From assembly GCA_030065915.1 (NCBI GenBank), contig JASJCQ010000006.1, forward strand, positions 1-64,000: a stretch of 64,000 nucleotides of DNA. The letters run 5' to 3'. The notes under the pieces were generated by a model that was not told where the DNA came from, did no database searches, and was given only the letters and a program-made list of their open reading frames with translations. Position 1 is the first letter of the stretch, and each line of letters begins with the position of its first letter. Source of the stretch: Woeseiaceae bacterium (GTDB lineage: Bacteria > Pseudomonadota > Gammaproteobacteria > Steroidobacterales > Woeseiaceae). Both the position numbers and the translations under genes were made by a program. Positions 56,169 to 64,000 of the stretch are shown in pieces.

Positions 56169-58154
56169 GTGCCTGCAAGTTACCGACGTATTACTCTTTT
56201 CTCACTCCTGGTAACCACACTTCTTCTAATCACCACGCATCAGCCGGACGACGCTCAAAGCTACATCGTCCAGGCAACCAGCCTCGACCAGGCCCGCGAT
56301 GCGGTCACCGCCGTCGGCGCCTCGGTGACGCATGAACTCGCGATCATCAAGGCTGTCAGCGCGACACTCAGCACGCGACAACGTGAGCGACTGCAGACTC
56401 ATCAGAATTTTCGAATCTTCAAAGACGGAGTCGTCCGAAGCGACACCGAGACGACGCTAACGTCCGGAAGGGAAGCCCGACTCGTCGACGCCTCTACTCA
56501 GCTGGTCAAGATGGAATACGACACCTCTACACGGTTGGTCAGAGAAGCCGACGCCTACTCACTGACGGCCAGGAAGTACGACACTTACACCGGGCGGATC
56601 AGCGAAGCAAGCGTCGAGCCTGCACCTTTAGCCACCAAAGAAAGCTACTACCCGACGACCGCGCCAGCCAGCAATGCTTTCATTACCCGTGGCTCCGATA
56701 GCGATGCTGCGCACCGCAGGCTAATCGGCGCCGACCGCCTTCTGATGGAAGGCTACACAGGAGCCGGTGTGACGATAGCCGTGCTCGATACCGGCATGTG
56801 GTATAGCCATGGAGACGTCAGACGCAACCTCTATGGGCGTAACAAGATCGTCGCCGGATTCAATGCGAAAACCGGCAGAGAAGAACAGGTACCCGACCAG
56901 CACGGTCACGGCACTCACCTTGCGAGCATCATTGGCAGCTCGAGAGTCACAAGCGGCGAGTATGAATTCGACGATGATGATGACGACGATTACGACGACG
57001 AAGATGGTTTCCAGGTTCTTGGAGTCGCGCCTAACGCGAACCTGATCAATATCGCAGCCTTTGACGAATACGGCGAAGGCAGCTACTCAGACGTCATTAG
57101 CGGACTCGACTGGCTACTCAAGGTCAAGGACAAGTACAACGTGCGCGTCTTGAACCTGTCGTTCAGCGCGCCACCGCAGTCATTCTACTGGGAGGACCCG
57201 ATCAACCAGGCCGTCATGACTCTGTGGCAATCAGGCATCGTCGTCGTCTCGTCGGCAGGTAACTCGGGGCCGGCGCCGATGACGATTGGCGTCCCTGGCA
57301 ACGTGCCCTACATCATTACGGTCGGCGCCATTACGGACAATTACACGCCCAGGGACAGGAGGGATGACCGAAATACGTCCTTCTCGGCTACCGGTCCCAC
57401 CGTCGAGGGTTTCGTCAAGCCGGAACTGGTCGCTCCCGGGGGGCATATTGCCGGCATCATGGACGAGAACGTTCACTCAATGGCACGGCAGAACCGGGAC
57501 TGGAAAGTCGGCTACCGGCTATTCGAGATGTCGGGCACGTCGCAGGCTGCAGCGGTTGTTTCGGGCTCGGTGGCGCTGCTACTGGAGGCAAAACCGTGGC
57601 TGGTGCCCGACGACGTCAAGTGCCAGCTGATGAGTTCGGCCAGTATCGGCACGATCGGAAGGAGTCACAGACTGGCCTACAGTGTGTTTCAGCAGGGCTC
57701 TGGACTTATCGACATCTACGACAGCGTCAAGAACAACAATCGTACCGGCTGTGCGAACGGCGGGATCGACATCAACCTCGACCTGACAGGGCAGCAGCGC
57801 TTCCAGGGGCCGGCAAACCTGAACGAGAACGGCATGTTCTACATCAAGCCGCCATCGGCTTCACTGAGTGACACCGATAGCGGCAGCTCGGGCGGAGGCG
57901 GCGCTGAAAACAGTGAGTACGAAGCGCTCAGCTGGGACGGCAGCTTTTCACAATGGATCAGAGGCCTGCTCTGGAACGATGGCCTGCTGTGGAACGATGG
58001 CCTGCTCTGGAACGATGGCCTGCTCTGGAATGACGGATTGCTCTGGAATGACGGCCTGCTCTGGAACGACGGCGTACTGTGGAACGACAGCATTCTCTGG
58101 AACGACCTCGCATCGGAGCCGGCGTCGATAGACCACCAGGTGGATCAGGAGTAA
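56169..58154 (+). CDS. Exported subtilisin-like S8 serine peptidase with C-terminal GLLWND repeats
   Basis: The protein has 661 residues: signal (residues 1-30), propeptide-like I9 domain (YIVQATSLDQARDAVTAVGA), then the S8 domain with D207 in VLDTGM, H247 in HGHGTH, N in SSAGNSG and S458 in MSGTSQAAA. An Asp-rich insertion (EFDDDDDDDYDDEDG) at about residues 266-280 interrupts the region after the catalytic His. After a Gly/Ser linker (DSGSSGGGG) the chain ends in eight near-identical six-residue repeats GLLWND. The repeats probably form a surface attachment or self-assembly element. It lies 37 bases upstream of the giant sensor gene and may be in the same transcript. It starts at GTG. Confidence 0.9.
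   Translation: MPASYRRITLFSLLVTTLLLITTHQPDDAQSYIVQATSLDQARDAVTAVGASVTHELAIIKAVSATLSTRQRERLQTHQNFRIFKDGVVRSDTETTLTSGREARLVDASTQLVKMEYDTSTRLVREADAYSLTARKYDTYTGRISEASVEPAPLATKESYYPTTAPASNAFITRGSDSDAAHRRLIGADRLLMEGYTGAGVTIAVLDTGMWYSHGDVRRNLYGRNKIVAGFNAKTGREEQVPDQHGHGTHLASIIGSSRVTSGEYEFDDDDDDDYDDEDGFQVLGVAPNANLINIAAFDEYGEGSYSDVISGLDWLLKVKDKYNVRVLNLSFSAPPQSFYWEDPINQAVMTLWQSGIVVVSSAGNSGPAPMTIGVPGNVPYIITVGAITDNYTPRDRRDDRNTSFSATGPTVEGFVKPELVAPGGHIAGIMDENVHSMARQNRDWKVGYRLFEMSGTSQAAAVVSGSVALLLEAKPWLVPDDVKCQLMSSASIGTIGRSHRLAYSVFQQGSGLIDIYDSVKNNNRTGCANGGIDINLDLTGQQRFQGPANLNENGMFYIKPPSASLSDTDSGSSGGGGAENSEYEALSWDGSFSQWIRGLLWNDGLLWNDGLLWNDGLLWNDGLLWNDGLLWNDGVLWNDSILWNDLASEPASIDHQVDQE
57963..58106 (+). repeat. 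Eight tandem 18-bp repeats encoding GLLWND-type hexapeptides
   Basis: The repeat unit is close to GGCCTGCTCTGGAACGAT. Units 1-6 encode GLLWND, unit 7 GVLWND and unit 8 SILWND. The first four units differ by very few bases, while later ones use different codons for the same amino acids, so selection has kept the peptide. Short near-identical units can change in number by slippage. Confidence 0.95.
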
Positions 58155-58191: not shown

Positions 58192-61100
58192 ATGCAACAG
58201 TCCGCGCGCACCAAGTCGATTAACGCGTATCGTATCGCGGCGGTGGCATTGTTGCTGTTCGCCGGGATCTCGCAGGCCAGCGACTCGCGAAGCATGCGCT
58301 TCTCACACATCAAACATGAAGATGGCCTGTCGCAGAGCTTCGTCTATGCAATGGTGCAGGACCGCGACGGTTTCATGTGGCTCGGCACACAGGAAGGGCT
58401 GAACCGATTTGATGGCCGCAACTTCCGTATCTACGCGGAGAACTCGGACGATCCTGAGGCGCTGGTCGATGACGGCATTCGAACACTGTTTATCGACAGT
58501 GCCGGCCTGCTCTGGATTGGCACGGACGCCGGAGGCCTCTCGGCATTCGATCCGGTCACTGAGACTTTTACAACCCACTTGCACGACCCGGCGGATCGAA
58601 CCAGCATCGCTGACGACCTGGTGCGTGTCGTCATGGAAGACAGTGCTGGCAAACTCTGGGTGGGTACAGACGGCTCAGGCCTCGACCGCTTCGATCCGAA
58701 TACCGGGGTCTTCGAGCATTTTCCGCACGACCCGCTGGACCCCGGCAGCCTGGCCGGTGGCCATGTCTGGGACATCGTTCAGCGGGACGATGGCACGCTA
58801 TGGGTTGCGACGAGCGAAGGCTTGAGCCGGTTCAATCCGACCGAGGGGACCTTTACCAACTTCAGGCATGACCAGGACGATCCTGCGAGCCTCAGCGACA
58901 GCCGCCTGCGCGCGCTGATTGAAGACAGCCGAGGGGACCTGTGGATCGGCACGCTGACCGGCGGACTGAACCGCTTCGATGACGACACATCCACCTTCCA
59001 ACGCTTCGAACACAATGCCGAAGACCCCGCAACGCTCAGCTCGAACCAGGTCAACGCGATATTCGAAGACGATGACCGCGTACTCTGGGTTGGGACCGAC
59101 CGGGGACTCAATGCCTGGAACCCCGATTCGAGCAGTTTCTCGAACTACCGCGAGGATCCGGCCGATCCGGACAGTATTGCGAACGACAACGTACTGTCGA
59201 TCTTCCAGGATCGCGGTGGCGTCTTGTGGGTCGGAACCTACGAGGGCCTGTCGCTGTGGAATCCGACGACACGCACAATGCTGCACTTTCGGCAGGATGC
59301 AGATGATGGTTCTTCCCTGTCGTCCGACGTCGTCACGTCTTTCACGGAAGACGCGACCGGCCGGGTCTGGGTTGGCACATTCGGCGGCGGCATCAATGTT
59401 CTCGACAGAAGACTCGGCAAGTTCACACAGATCGTTCACGACCCGGACGACAGCGGCAGCATCTCGTCAGACCGCGTCATGGCGCTTCTTACCGACAGCA
59501 CCGGAACCATCTGGGCTGGCACTCGCAACGCCGGGCTGAACCGAATCGATGCCGACGGCGTGACTCGCTATGTCCATGACAGTGGCGACCCGACCAGTCT
59601 GTGTGCGGACGGTGTCACCTACCTCATCGAAGACAGCAGCAAGGCCGGATTATGGGTCGCAACCTTCGGCGGCGGGCTTTGCTACTTCGACCGATCAGCC
59701 GGGGTATTTACCGCCTTTCGCCATGACCCGGAGAATCCGTCGTCAATCAGCAGCGATCGAATTCTGCATATTTTCGAAGACTCATCGCAGACGCTGTGGG
59801 TTGGTACTTTCGGCGGCAGCCTGAACCGGCTCGATCGCGATAGCGGCAGCTTCGCGCGAATCGAGGCCGAGCCAAGGCGCAACGACGGGCTCAGCGGCAA
59901 CGAGATCTACCTGATCACCGAGGACGCCAATGGCGACCTGTGGATCGCCGCCAAAGGCGGCGGCCTGAATCGCTGGTCAAAGCAGGATCGTGACCGGGGC
60001 AACGTCAGCTTCGAGCGATTCTCCGAGATTGACGGGCTGCCGAACGCGACGATCTACAGTGGCATCTGGGACCAAAAGGGCAACCTGTGGATGAGCACGG
60101 GACGCGGGCTTTCTTGCCTCAACCTGGTAACGCGGGAATTCAGGAATTTCAGCACCGAGGACGGGCTGCAAGGCAATGAGTTCAACTTCGCCGCCGGATT
60201 CGCCGGTTCGGATGGATCGTTGTTCTTCGGCGGCCTGAAAGGATTCAATGCCTTCGACCCGGCTGCACTGACCGCCAAGGGGCGCGCGCCGCAGGTCGCA
60301 ATTACGAATCTCTTGAGCCTGAACGAACCGGTGGACCTGACGCAGTCGCGTCTGGATGGCGACGCCGTAGCGCTGCGGCACGACGAATACCTGGTCAGCT
60401 TCGAGTTCGCAGCGCTGGACTTCGCCGCGCCGCTACGGCATCGCTTCATGTACAGGCTGGACGGTCTCGACCTGGACTGGATAGATTCCGGCGACCGCCG
60501 CCAGGCGACCTACACGAACCTGCCGGCCGGCGACTACACGTTCCGCGTCAGGGCCGGGAACGGCGACGGCACCTGGTCGGTCGATGAAGCGACATTGCGT
60601 CTCTATGTCCAGCCTGCACCGTGGGCCAGCTGGTGGGCCTACCTGCTGTATGCGATCGCAGGCGCACTGCTGGTGCTGACAATGATCCGTTCGTTTCGGC
60701 AACGCGCGATGCAGGCCGCAACGCTTCGCTATGCCACCGAACTCGAGCAGGTGGAAACGCGACTGAATACGGCACAGCGAATTGCGGCGATTGGTAACTG
60801 GGAATGGGAACTCGACACCGGGGAATGCTGGTGGTCGGACGAGCTATACCGCATTCTCGGACTCGACGCGCGGGACATCGACCCATCGATGGACTACTTC
60901 ATGGGCCGCGTGCATCCGGACGACCGGGAGGCTGCCCGCAGCACCGTTGAGCGATCGATTGAGGCAAAGGACTCTTTTTCCATGGTGCTTCGGATCGTCC
61001 GGCCCGACCGCACGGAGCGAATCGTGCGCTGCCGAGCCGAGTCTGTCGAAGACCAGAATGGTCGAGGCAAGACGATGTCGGGGACCATGCACGACATCAC

Positions 61101-62655
61101 CGAGCGCCAACAGGCCGAAGACGAGATCGTCCGGTTCGCAGATTTCCAGAAGCTGCTCGCAGAATTATCGTCGAGTCTCATCCAGGGAACGCCTGAGCAG
61201 ATCGAGCAGCAGGTCAGGAAAGGCCTGCGAATCACCGGGGTACACTACGGCATCGACTCCGTCAGCACCTGGTGGGTCAGCGACGATCGGACTCGAGCCA
61301 ACCTCGAATTTCGATGGTCGGTCGGCGGCGATGAAAACCTTGCCGAAAGCTACTCGCTCGAGAAGCTGGGCTGGGTCAATGAAACGCTTTCGGCAACCAA
61401 ACCGATAGTCCTCGATGACGTCCAGTCACTGGTGGACTCCGGGTGTGGTGGAGCAGCGTTGATTCGAGAAACGAAAGCACGGTCTATCGTTTCGCTTCCC
61501 ATAGTCTTGAACGACGTCACCGTCGGCGCGATTTCGTTTATCTGCTTCCGGAAGAAAAAGAGCTGGTCGCCGAAGACGGTAGAGGAACTGACGCTGATCT
61601 CGGAAGCCATCGGAGGTGCTCTGGCTCGGCTGCGAGGCGTTGTCGAGATCCAGCGACTCAAGGAGAAGCTCCAGGAAGAAAACTACTACCTGCGCAGCGA
61701 GGTGATGCTGTCGCACAAGTTTAGTGACATCGTCGGGGAAGACGAGGGTCTCAAGCACTGCCTGCAGATGGTCGAGAAAGTCGCGCCGACGGATGCCGCC
61801 GTTCTCATCCTCGGCGAATCGGGAACGGGCAAGGAGCTCATCGCCCGTTCGATTCACGAGCTGAGCTCACGCAGGGAGCGCCCGATGATCAGCGTTAACT
61901 GCCCCGCTCTGCCGTCGACGCTCATCGAAAGTGAGCTGTTCGGTCACGAAAAAGGCGCCTTTACCGGAGCGACTTCCAAGCGCCCGGGCCGGTTTGAACT
62001 CGCGGAGGGCGGCACGCTGTTCCTCGATGAGATCGGCGAGTTGTCCCTGGACCTCCAGGCAAAACTACTGCGCGTACTGCAGACGGGAGAATATGAGCGG
62101 CTCGGCGGCACAGAAACCCGGGTTGCCAACGTGAGACTCATTGCGGCGACTAACCGCGATCTCAGGTCGGCTACAGCGTCCGGCGAGTTCCGGGAAGACC
62201 TGTTTTACCGAATTAACAGTTTCCCGATCGAGCTGCCACCATTGCGTGACCGAAGCGGCGACATACCGCTGCTCGCCGAGCACTTTGTTCGAAAACACGC
62301 GGGCCGGCTCAACAAGACCATAACGGCGATATCCGCGAGCATGATCAGCGAACTGAACAGCTACGAATGGCCCGGCAACATTCGTGAACTGGAGAGTGTC
62401 ATTGTGCGCGCATTGATTTCGGCCGGCGATAATTCGGTCCTGCGCCTGCCTGAGCCTCTGCGTACCGATGACTCACAGACGGGCAACGGCAATGGCTCAT
62501 CGAGCCTCGACTACGAAGAACGATCTCACATCGTTGCCGTGCTCGAGAGCGCCGGCTGGAAGATCTCGGGTCCGCAAGGCGCTGCCGAGAAACTGGGACT
62601 TGCGCCCAGTACGCTGCGCTCACGAATGAAAAAGCTCGGCATAGAGCGCAGCTGA
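58192..62655 (+). CDS. Transmembrane one-component sigma-54 activator with double beta-propeller sensor (HTCS-type sensor, NtrC-type output)
   Basis: The protein has 1487 residues. A hydrophobic signal/anchor lies at about 13-28. About 14 two-component-regulator propeller repeats follow (residues about 35-715), each with a core such as LWVGT..GLNRFD, matching two seven-bladed propellers. A Y_Y_Y domain is at about 735-805 (AGDYTFRVRAGNGDGTWS), with a transmembrane helix at about 815-832. PAS is at about 862-980 (RIAAIGNWEWELDTGECWWS) and GAF at about 990-1150. The sigma-54 AAA+ domain shows GESGTGKE near 1208, GAFTGA near 1255, LFLDEIGELS and FREDLFYRINSF. A Fis-type HTH is at the end. No histidine kinase, receiver or AraC domain is present. 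It probably senses a periplasmic oligomer and activates sigma-54 promoters directly from the membrane. Confidence 0.9.
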   Translation: MQQSARTKSINAYRIAAVALLLFAGISQASDSRSMRFSHIKHEDGLSQSFVYAMVQDRDGFMWLGTQEGLNRFDGRNFRIYAENSDDPEALVDDGIRTLFIDSAGLLWIGTDAGGLSAFDPVTETFTTHLHDPADRTSIADDLVRVVMEDSAGKLWVGTDGSGLDRFDPNTGVFEHFPHDPLDPGSLAGGHVWDIVQRDDGTLWVATSEGLSRFNPTEGTFTNFRHDQDDPASLSDSRLRALIEDSRGDLWIGTLTGGLNRFDDDTSTFQRFEHNAEDPATLSSNQVNAIFEDDDRVLWVGTDRGLNAWNPDSSSFSNYREDPADPDSIANDNVLSIFQDRGGVLWVGTYEGLSLWNPTTRTMLHFRQDADDGSSLSSDVVTSFTEDATGRVWVGTFGGGINVLDRRLGKFTQIVHDPDDSGSISSDRVMALLTDSTGTIWAGTRNAGLNRIDADGVTRYVHDSGDPTSLCADGVTYLIEDSSKAGLWVATFGGGLCYFDRSAGVFTAFRHDPENPSSISSDRILHIFEDSSQTLWVGTFGGSLNRLDRDSGSFARIEAEPRRNDGLSGNEIYLITEDANGDLWIAAKGGGLNRWSKQDRDRGNVSFERFSEIDGLPNATIYSGIWDQKGNLWMSTGRGLSCLNLVTREFRNFSTEDGLQGNEFNFAAGFAGSDGSLFFGGLKGFNAFDPAALTAKGRAPQVAITNLLSLNEPVDLTQSRLDGDAVALRHDEYLVSFEFAALDFAAPLRHRFMYRLDGLDLDWIDSGDRRQATYTNLPAGDYTFRVRAGNGDGTWSVDEATLRLYVQPAPWASWWAYLLYAIAGALLVLTMIRSFRQRAMQAATLRYATELEQVETRLNTAQRIAAIGNWEWELDTGECWWSDELYRILGLDARDIDPSMDYFMGRVHPDDREAARSTVERSIEAKDSFSMVLRIVRPDRTERIVRCRAESVEDQNGRGKTMSGTMHDITERQQAEDEIVRFADFQKLLAELSSSLIQGTPEQIEQQVRKGLRITGVHYGIDSVSTWWVSDDRTRANLEFRWSVGGDENLAESYSLEKLGWVNETLSATKPIVLDDVQSLVDSGCGGAALIRETKARSIVSLPIVLNDVTVGAISFICFRKKKSWSPKTVEELTLISEAIGGALARLRGVVEIQRLKEKLQEENYYLRSEVMLSHKFSDIVGEDEGLKHCLQMVEKVAPTDAAVLILGESGTGKELIARSIHELSSRRERPMISVNCPALPSTLIESELFGHEKGAFTGATSKRPGRFELAEGGTLFLDEIGELSLDLQAKLLRVLQTGEYERLGGTETRVANVRLIAATNRDLRSATASGEFREDLFYRINSFPIELPPLRDRSGDIPLLAEHFVRKHAGRLNKTITAISASMISELNSYEWPGNIRELESVIVRALISAGDNSVLRLPEPLRTDDSQTGNGNGSSSLDYEERSHIVAVLESAGWKISGPQGAAEKLGLAPSTLRSRMKKLGIERS

Positions 62656-62798
62656 CCAATTGTCCGGCGCCACGCCGATGCGACTCAGGAAGTAAATCGC
62701 CGCTCTGTCGTTACGCGGCCGTGTCGTGACTGTCGATCTTTTCGAACCGCAGGGCAAGCACTAGAATCGTGGACTTATCCTTCACGGAGCCACGGACC

Positions 62799-64000
62799 AT
62801 GCCCAGCCAGAAAGTCGAATTCCCTAACGCATCCGGGCATCTGTTGTCCGGCATCATGGACCACCTGGGACGTCCGCCGGTCGCCTATGCGCTGTTTGCG
62901 CACTGCTTCACCTGCTCCAAGAATCTCAAGGCCGCGAGCAACATCAGCGCTGCATTGAATGCGTCCGGTATCGCGGTGTTACGGTTCGACTTTACCGGCC
63001 TCGGACAGAGTGAGGGCGACTTCTCTGACACCAATTTTTCGTCCAACGTTGACGATCTGCTCACGGCGTCCGCCTTCCTGGAAGAGCGCTTTGAGGCTCC
63101 CGCGATTCTTGTCGGGCACTCACTGGGAGGAACGGCCGTCCTGCAGGCAGCGCGGCGTATTGAATCCGCCGTCGCCGTTGCAACTATCGGCTCGCCATCC
63201 GAAGCCGTTCACGTCGCGCACTTGCTGGAAGGATCGAGAGACGAGCTTCGGGAGCGGGGTGAAGCCACGGTCAACCTCGGCGGCCGACCGTTCCGAATGA
63301 AGCAGCAGTTCGTCGATGACCTCGAGAGCCATGCAATCGAACCGGCATTAGGGTCGCTGCGCAAGGCGTTGCTGATCATGCACGCCCCACTGGATACCGT
63401 TGTCGAGGTCGACAACGCGTCGGCGCTGTTCGTTGCCGCGAAGCATCCCAAGAGCTTCGTCAGCCTCGATGACGCCGATCACTTGTTGAGTCGGGAAGAG
63501 GACTCACTGTATGCCGGCAAGGTACTTGCCGCCTGGGCGAGTCGCTACCTGCCGGAAAGAGACGACGTCTCTGCGGCGGACGACAGCCAGGTAGCTGCAA
63601 CGACACGCTCCGGAGGATTCCGAACCGACATCACCTTACCCAACGCACAGCTCATCGCCGACGAACCTGCGTCGGTGGGCGGTACCGGCCTCGGCCCTAC
63701 GCCTTACGACCTGCTGTCTGCCGCGCTGGCGAGCTGCACGACGATGACACTGCAGATGTACGCGAGGCACAAGAAGCTGGACCTCCGGGCGGCGACGGTC
63801 ATGATCGAACACGACAAGATTCACGCGAAAGACTGCATGGACTGCGAGAGGTCCGACGGGAAGATCGATGAATTTCGACGGACAATCACTCTCGAAGGCG
63901 ACCTGACCGAGGAACAAAGACAGAGGATGCTTGAAATCGCCGACCGTTGCCCGGTGCATAGAACGCTACACAGCGAGGTCAAGGTGCGATCGTCACTCGC
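62799..64000 (+). CDS. Bifunctional alpha/beta hydrolase-OsmC family protein, C-terminus cut
   Basis: About 400 residues are visible and no stop is reached before the window end. The first half is an alpha/beta hydrolase: FAHCFTCSKNLKAA, RFDFTGLGQSEG, the nucleophile elbow ILVGHSLGGTAV, an Asp in HAPLDTVV and a His in DDADHLL. The second half is OsmC-like: GPTPYDLLSAALASCTTMTLQMYARHKKL, the ASC Cys, and RCPVHRTL with the second Cys. This gives the peroxide-reducing thiol pair. Fusions of the two folds are known as a family of about 405-410 residues, so only a few residues are missing. It would detoxify organic hydroperoxides, with an unknown hydrolase partner reaction. The start ATG at 62799 has an upstream GGAG. 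Confidence 0.92.
   Translation, partial: MPSQKVEFPNASGHLLSGIMDHLGRPPVAYALFAHCFTCSKNLKAASNISAALNASGIAVLRFDFTGLGQSEGDFSDTNFSSNVDDLLTASAFLEERFEAPAILVGHSLGGTAVLQAARRIESAVAVATIGSPSEAVHVAHLLEGSRDELRERGEATVNLGGRPFRMKQQFVDDLESHAIEPALGSLRKALLIMHAPLDTVVEVDNASALFVAAKHPKSFVSLDDADHLLSREEDSLYAGKVLAAWASRYLPERDDVSAADDSQVAATTRSGGFRTDITLPNAQLIADEPASVGGTGLGPTPYDLLSAALASCTTMTLQMYARHKKLDLRAATVMIEHDKIHAKDCMDCERSDGKIDEFRRTITLEGDLTEEQRQRMLEIADRCPVHRTLHSEVKVRSSL

Follow-up and report, generated by a model that had tools for sequence, protein, structure and literature searches.

The locus and the domain architecture of the sensor

We examined a 64,000-nucleotide stretch of DNA from a Woeseiaceae bacterium (positions 1 to 64,000 of the forward strand of contig JASJCQ010000006.1, assembly GCA_030065915.1; hereafter, the window), in which the initial annotation, made from the nucleotide sequence, had singled out a giant one-component sensor that joins a double propeller typical of hybrid two-component systems (HTCS) to a sigma-54 activator. 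The sensor is encoded by a single, unbroken open reading frame (ORF) that starts with ATG and contains no internal stop codons. As the initial annotation noted, it is preceded by a gene for a repeat-tailed subtilase: the stop codon of the latter ends at 58154, leaving a gap of 37 bases. The features of the two genes are listed in Table 1.

Table 1. Coordinates of the subtilase and sensor genes and of their predicted parts in the window
Feature	Position in the window	Strand	Length or residues	Evidence
S8 subtilase, GTG start	56169..58154	+	661 aa	Pfam, catalytic motifs, PDB match
Subtilase tail with tryptophan hexad repeats (8 WND units, LLWNDG type)	57966..58106	+		sequence
Putative transmembrane one-component sigma-54 activator	58192..62655	+	1487 aa	ORF, Pfam, homologues
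Predicted signal peptide	58192..58278	+	~1-29	AlphaFold2 helix 3-24, then a low-confidence stretch; sequence
Double seven-bladed propeller, 14 Reg_prop-type blades	58303..60291	+	38-700	Pfam, motif scan, AlphaFold2, Foldseek
Y_Y_Y domain	60427..60609	+	746-806	Pfam
Predicted membrane helix, extended as a long helix toward PAS	60631..60687	+	814-832	hydropathy scan, AlphaFold2
PAS_3	60829..61089	+	880-966	Pfam; PDB match 3nja
GAF	61261..61623	+	1024-1144	Pfam, just under the curated cut-offs in the window protein
Sigma-54 AAA+ domain with lid	61729..62454	+	1180-1421	Pfam; PDB NifA 9qq6, ZraR 1ojl
GAFTGA sigma-54-contact loop	61954..61971	+	1255-1260	motif scan
Fis-type HTH_8	62518..62637	+	1443-1482	Pfam

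The fusion of a double propeller and a Y_Y_Y domain to PAS, GAF, AAA+ and a Fis-type helix-turn-helix (HTH) domain was confirmed by Pfam searches, motif scanning and, for residues 1-857, AlphaFold2 modelling. In the Pfam search, Reg_prop was detected with an E-value of 5.5e-55 and Sigma54_activat, at residues 1180-1347, with 1.5e-70, along with AAA_lid_14; HTH_8 scored 26.0 bits, above its cut-off of 22. The GAF domain falls slightly short of the thresholds in the window protein (25.4 bits against a cut-off of 28.6 for GAF_2, and 22.3 against 22.4 for PF01590), but clears the cut-off in two homologues (L162 and L165). HisKA, HATPase and Response_reg are not among the 18 Pfam families listed for the sensor at 0.001, so that the claimed absence of a kinase and a receiver stands. 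Thus, of the features that define an HTCS, the double propeller with Y_Y_Y is present, whereas no kinase or receiver was detected and the place of the AraC-type HTH is taken by HTH_8. The motif scan recognized 14 blade strands in the window sensor and 11 to 15, in roughly the same pattern, in its homologues; it also placed Walker A at residue 1208, GAFTGA at 1255, Walker B at 1273 and FREDLFYR at 1333.

In the AlphaFold2 model of residues 1-857 (mean pLDDT 89.3, pTM 0.71), an N-terminal helix spans residues 3-24 and a long one residues 814-856; the blades and a beta-sandwich are also seen. The structures most similar to the ectodomain model, in a Foldseek search, are those of the HTCS sensors BT4663 (4a2m/4a2l) and BT3049 (3v9f), with a target TM of 0.80-0.89; the entries for BT4673 reach only 0.49-0.50. 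Sequence searches against solved structures gave matches of residues 31-809 to BT4663 (4a2l; 4.9e-106), of residues 854-974 to the PAS domain of a GGDEF protein (3nja; 4.6e-15) and of residues 1134-1484 to NifA (9qq6; 1.7e-84). The hydropathy scan marked a helix at 814-832, after Y_Y_Y, in line with the predicted membrane crossing, plus a segment at 1099-1117 that lies within the GAF domain. We infer a receptor with periplasmic propellers, a single membrane pass and a cytoplasmic output.

Distribution and origin of the fusion

Eight of the 107 genomes of the family, including the window genome, carry the near-full-length fusion as a single frame (in G079, the 3' end is cut off by the contig edge). 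The other seven sensors are 89, 56, 54, 52, 52, 51 and 51% identical to that of the window; all eight belong to one genus, and their outputs were scored as AAA+ rather than kinase. Beyond this genus, no fusion was found in samples of 396 genomes from the order, 369 from the class and 398 from the phylum; the samples overlap, each represents a part of a larger group, and the result pertains to the high-scoring matches listed. In a separate set of loci (L011-L089 and those from L215 on, ORFs of at least 200 amino acids), the propeller and AAA+ are joined only in L011 and L014, which were not added to the genome count. The closest named record, L011, is a Woeseiaceae metagenome-assembled genome. 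Comparison with it yields 197 synonymous and 111 nonsynonymous codon differences in the ectodomain, 98 and 48 in the linker-PAS-GAF region, 67 and 12 in AAA+, and 17 and 9 in the HTH. Given the single frame in eight genomes and the predominance of synonymous changes, we reject an artefact that joined two genes. The initial annotation had reasoned that the fusion would be undermined by a break in the frame or by homologues with a separately encoded propeller; the frame is intact, and in all eight homologues with a sigma-54 output the propeller is part of the same frame.

In the tree of 70 ectodomains (of the 72 sensors in a wider set), the eight fusions form one clade with a support of 1.0. With midpoint rooting, the sister of this clade consists of two histidine kinase (HK) sensors from a single genome (L262 and L263 of G009; support 0.893). 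Related AAA+ modules, with 57-63% identity, occur on other sensors. The best reading of these sequences is that the propeller-sigma-54 receptor type originated once, through an exchange of the output within a propeller receptor family.

The subtilase and its tryptophan-rich tail

The upstream gene encodes an S8 peptidase (Peptidase_S8, 2.6e-47; subtilisin-like match in PDB, 1.7e-41) with the catalytic D-H-S residues and the oxyanion asparagine (D207, GHGTH at 246-250, SAGN at 362, SGTSQA at 455). We also read an I9-like propeptide region in its sequence. Judging from the moderately hydrophobic N-terminus, the protein is probably exported; the hydropathy scan flagged an N-terminal segment in the subtilases of four homologous loci (L160, L161, L163, L168), but not in that of the window. 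AlphaFold2 yielded a pLDDT of 28.2 for the subtilase, with an alignment of two sequences only. The distance from subtilase end to sensor start (38 in the window) ranges from -22 to +31 in five paired homologues.

All six subtilases that adjoin sigma-54-type sensors, one of which is a fragment of the tail at the beginning of a contig, contain WND units. Across the paired subtilases, at least five tryptophans are present in the last 140 residues in 47 of 49, the two exceptions (L144 and L259) being split or cut frames, and a count of at least 4 for the hydrophobic-tryptophan core was obtained for 40 of the 49 tails. As a control, one of the two unrelated S8 genes of the window genome was recovered and has 2 tryptophans (the other was missed by the motif used). 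The spacing of the tryptophan motifs differs between relatives, being 6, about 11 or about 18 residues, and 17 of the 30 upstream-type subtilases end in W-V-x-[QPFH]-E, under a loose pattern that the window protein, with QVDQE at its end, does not fit.

We hypothesize, from the sequences, that the tail is an array of short binding motifs that could be accepted by the 14 similar blades of the receptor. Two other views of the tail were set aside. A regular solenoid does not agree with the variable spacing among relatives. Mimicry of a propeller strand is suggested by a visible DGxLW likeness, yet Pfam detected no Reg_prop in three tails, and this view survives as an idea only.

Subtilase partners across the propeller receptors

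Subtilases of this family also adjoin sensors with other outputs, namely, GGDEF (L142, L171), GGDEF-EAL (L149) and HisKA-HATPase-receivers-Hpt (L175). For an estimate of how common the pairing is, 57 related double-propeller sensors were taken across the order irrespective of their neighbours (58 matches minus G099:C32, which lacks the ectodomain). A co-directional subtilase is located within 6 kb of 46 of these, and in 38 cases there is no called gene in between. By output, the pairing involves 6 of 8 sigma-54, 13 of 14 HK and 27 of 35 GGDEF sensors. Among the 11 unpaired sensors, 7 have less than 3 kb of sequence on one side, and 4 (L162, L165, L193, L241) have at least 3 kb on both. In L179, a subtilase is found 4.2 kb away, on the opposite strand. 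In the wider set, some members of which were picked because a subtilase was near, 55 of 72 sensors are paired.

The window genome contains five S8 genes, three of them beside propeller sensors. Based on the S8 count of this genome alone, the pairing would be expected by chance for about 0.9% of the sensors; among the what-if values of 10, 20 and 40 genes per genome, the last one raises this to 6.6%. In a control set of 57 less closely related propeller sensors (among them those of Massilia and Bacteroidota), a co-directional subtilase was found next to none, with the reservations that some flanks are short and that a very different protease would escape a query with this subtilase family; one of them, L068, has a weak subtilase match on the opposite strand. 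The pairing extends to other orders, with 1 of 1 sensors (L266) and 5 of 5 in family f154 (L269-L273); in the latter, the subtilase lies directly upstream, with a similar tryptophan core and tail spacings of about 6, 11 or 18. An HK sensor of the same order (L268, from the class sample) was not judged, having only 245 bases upstream.

Across the 107 family genomes, 27 have both the sensor and the subtilase, 2 only the subtilase, 8 only the sensor and 70 neither; G104, whose match covers 341-841 only, was not counted among the sensor genomes. In 5 of the 8 sensor-only genomes (G068, G071, G078, G084, G087), a subtilase or a tail shows up in the context. Sensor and subtilase divergence, compared for the 50 paired subtilases longer than 400 amino acids, are correlated (r 0.51 for all pairs), and more so when split by position (r 0.81 for 22 adjacent upstream subtilases, r 0.70 for 20 downstream ones), with 0 of 2000 permutations reaching the observed value in each case. 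We refer to these receptors as the subtilase-partnered propeller receptor family, a name coined here; the window pair belongs to it, having a co-directional, tryptophan-tailed subtilase.

Several gene arrangements around these receptors deserve a separate record. The window genome encodes a second double-propeller receptor, with a GGDEF output (L169; C33:112000-130000), that is followed by two tryptophan-tailed subtilases and preceded by two EAL-type proteins. In L142, L143, L145, L146, L194 and L257, a propeller-GGDEF receptor and a tryptophan-tailed subtilase are clustered with two EAL-type proteins, a recurring arrangement that perhaps forms a self-contained cyclic di-GMP (c-di-GMP) circuit. 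Near a W-tailed subtilase in L158 (7563-11117), there is a 1184-residue hybrid kinase in which no propeller was detected, perhaps a further type of receptor with a subtilase partner.

The predicted sigma-54 output and the search for its promoters

The cytoplasmic part displays the features of a one-component sigma-54 enhancer-binding protein (EBP), that is, an AAA+ domain of the Sigma54_activat family with Walker A, Walker B and the arginine finger region. Walker A is conserved in all eight fusions, GAFTGA is unaltered in seven, including the window protein, and all seven that extend to the C-terminus include the aligned HTH stretch. The window genome encodes RpoN, with one match (Sigma54_DBD, 2.2e-70). 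The AAA+ domain would then act on sigma-54 while tethered to the membrane. This might not be the only such case: another sigma-54 activator with a PAS/GAF-like region (L231:2344-5019) is 49% identical to the window sensor over residues 852-1486 and has a different N-terminus that resembles a membrane segment, suggesting that other membrane-bound sigma-54 activators may exist.

The initial annotation had proposed to look for GG-N10-GC promoters near the gene, and none of note were found. With GG and GC obligatory, the best -24/-12 sites in the window have 2 mismatches, none fewer. No common site was detected upstream of the subtilases (7 regions scanned, 5 aligned), where the best candidates have 3 mismatches (L161) and 4 mismatches (L163). 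The scan of the complete genome yielded 15 exact matches, all of them outside the window contig, compared to 4 for the reversed pattern. A type IV prepilin-like gene (L208) lies downstream of one of these sites, and several others are located ahead of genes for exported-looking proteins, all labels being assigned by reading the sequences. A local sigma-54 regulon beside the gene was accordingly dismissed, all three scans having failed to reveal a nearby target.

Comparison with known systems

The HTCS sensors of Bacteroidetes (BT4663, BT3049, BT4673) share with the window protein the periplasmic 14-blade double propeller with Y_Y_Y; the identity of the ectodomain to those of BT4663 and BT3049 is 26-28%. 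The HTCS output consists of histidine kinase, receiver and AraC domains, and BT4663 binds glycans and signals by a scissor-like motion. In contrast, the window protein has the PAS-GAF-AAA+-Fis HTH output, in which no phosphotransfer domain was found, and a subtilase neighbour. The output itself resembles NifA, NorR and the formate hydrogenlyase (FHL) activator in the order GAF-AAA+-HTH and in GAFTGA. These are the best NCBIfam matches (FHL activator 1.2e-115, NifA 9.7e-112, NorR 4.8e-103), all below the respective cut-offs. NifA, NorR and the FHL activator are cytoplasmic, unlike the window protein with its periplasmic sensor of roughly 800 residues.

Surveys of EBPs provide some context: one paper states that membrane regions are missing from most EBP sensor domains in Clostridiales (PMC6615313), and another that Desulfovibrio vulgaris has 15 one-component EBPs (PMC4641369). 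The Reg_prop/Y_Y_Y diguanylate cyclases of Xanthomonas oryzae, in PMC6637768, have periplasmic sensor domains listed as of unknown function. Two of these proteins, GdpX2 and GdpX3, carry the same kind of periplasmic sensor as the window protein, but have c-di-GMP synthesis as their output where the window protein has sigma-54 activation.

According to PMC8545088, the peptidase/sortase PorU is bound by PorZ, a double-propeller protein that the authors liken to BT4663. The PorZ family model matches the window sensor at 4e-38 (131 bits, under the cut-off of 260), and the PorZ structure 5m11 ranks 16 in the Foldseek search (target TM 0.35). The parallel with the window pair is limited in that PorZ is exposed on the surface and takes part in secretion, and PorU is a cysteine peptidase (PMC5121618) rather than a subtilase. 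Among the titles and abstract openings listed for the open-access PubMed Central papers searched, none concerned a propeller-sigma-54 fusion or a subtilase-propeller pair.

A proposed receptor with a protease on its input side and the alternatives

The view of this gene as a giant one-component propeller-sigma-54 sensor is supported, as the joining of the domains and the absence of a kinase and receiver stand, together with the topology as predicted. Building on it, we consider moderately probable an interpretation under which the gene encodes a transmembrane one-component sigma-54 activator that arose by exchange of the output in a receptor family whose members mostly have a subtilase partner, with the subtilase on the input side. 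The double propeller with Y_Y_Y would sense in the periplasm; a conformational change would be relayed to PAS-GAF by the membrane helix and the helical segment that prolongs it. PAS-GAF would control the assembly or ATPase activity of AAA+, and the latter would remodel RNA polymerase containing sigma-54 at promoters located elsewhere in the genome. The subtilase, in an operon-like pair with the sensor, could supply, trim or itself be the ligand, with its tryptophan-repeat tail as a candidate docking element.

The placement of the protease on the input side, which we deem most likely, is favoured by the retention of the partner across sigma-54, GGDEF and phosphorelay outputs and by the lack of a common sigma-54 site at the subtilase promoter; the binding of PorU by the double-propeller protein PorZ (PMC8545088) counts as a precedent. 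More tentatively, and short of being likely, the protease would itself be the ligand: the tryptophan array would bind the pseudo-equivalent blades, and substrate loading or processing would be read across the membrane and passed to interchangeable outputs, c-di-GMP, phosphorelay or sigma-54.

Under the favoured interpretation, the window gene provides a clear-cut example of a receptor in the periplasm that is connected directly to sigma-54, with no kinase in between, and the subtilase is a candidate partner for Reg_prop/Y_Y_Y receptors with GGDEF or kinase outputs. If the protease is indeed the input, a single purified protein pair would open many such sensors to testing.

Several observations weigh against this interpretation. 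Two sigma-54 fusions with more than 5 kb on each side (L162 and L165) have no neighbouring subtilase, and none was detected in their genomes at 1e-40. The sister HK sensors L262 and L263 were found without a subtilase neighbour as well, L263 having 2.5 kb upstream, so that a partnered ancestor of the sigma-54 clade cannot be taken as established. Conversely, 20 contexts (L153-L159, L180-L192), several at contig ends, include such a subtilase and no propeller frame. The statistic of the divergence test ignores the species phylogeny, and three subtilase tails compared with Pfam gave a single WXXGXW match at 0.69. On the output side, L161 carries GAFAGA in place of GAFTGA, and of the two homologues scanned for HTH_8, L165 has it and L162 does not at 1e-4. 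Finally, the interpretation does not account for the way in which a membrane-bound receptor would form AAA+ hexamers and gain access to DNA.

Among the alternatives, a nutrient-scavenging unit fares best, although we regard it as unlikely: the receptor would read peptides or glycopeptides and induce the neighbouring protease and other genes, much as HTCS receptors do with polysaccharide-use loci, the subtilase being a target and not the input. The HTCS ectodomain fold and the operon-like spacing of the two genes are compatible with such a unit. It is, however, difficult to reconcile with the same subtilase family next to GGDEF or GGDEF-EAL receptors, in which Pfam detected no DNA-binding domain (three proteins), and with the upstream regions, there being no good -24/-12 site ahead of the window subtilase and none common to the five aligned regions. 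The other neighbours of the fusions vary in size and strand; they were compared unannotated and so may include uptake genes.

A proteolytic switch, in which cleavage of the receptor by the subtilase, or by a different protease, leads to the release of PAS-GAF-AAA+-HTH, which could then form hexamers and bind enhancers, would account both for a tethered AAA+ working at DNA and for the protease partner. We find it improbable: the subtilase is predicted to be across the membrane from the linker, so that an additional protease, acting within the membrane, would be required, and release fits poorly with the GGDEF and HK members that have the same partner.

Still less probable is a glycan-type sensor with an unusual output and a functionally unrelated subtilase next door. 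The named ligands of the fold are glycans (heparin and heparan sulphate for BT4663, from the title of the structure entry; A-LPS for PorZ, in PMC8545088), and no neighbouring subtilase was found for two of the eight fusions or for either of the sister sensors. Against this stands the pairing of 46 of 57 sensors where about 1% is expected, its occurrence in other orders and its absence, 0 of 57, in the distant sensors. An assembly or frame artefact uniting two genes, refuted by the eight single frames and the dominance of synonymous changes, retains practically no probability.

Downstream of the sensor, a gene with no obvious counterpart near the other fusions, judged by size and strand only, occupies positions 62769-63998, up to the window end, and encodes an alpha/beta hydrolase fused to an OsmC domain.

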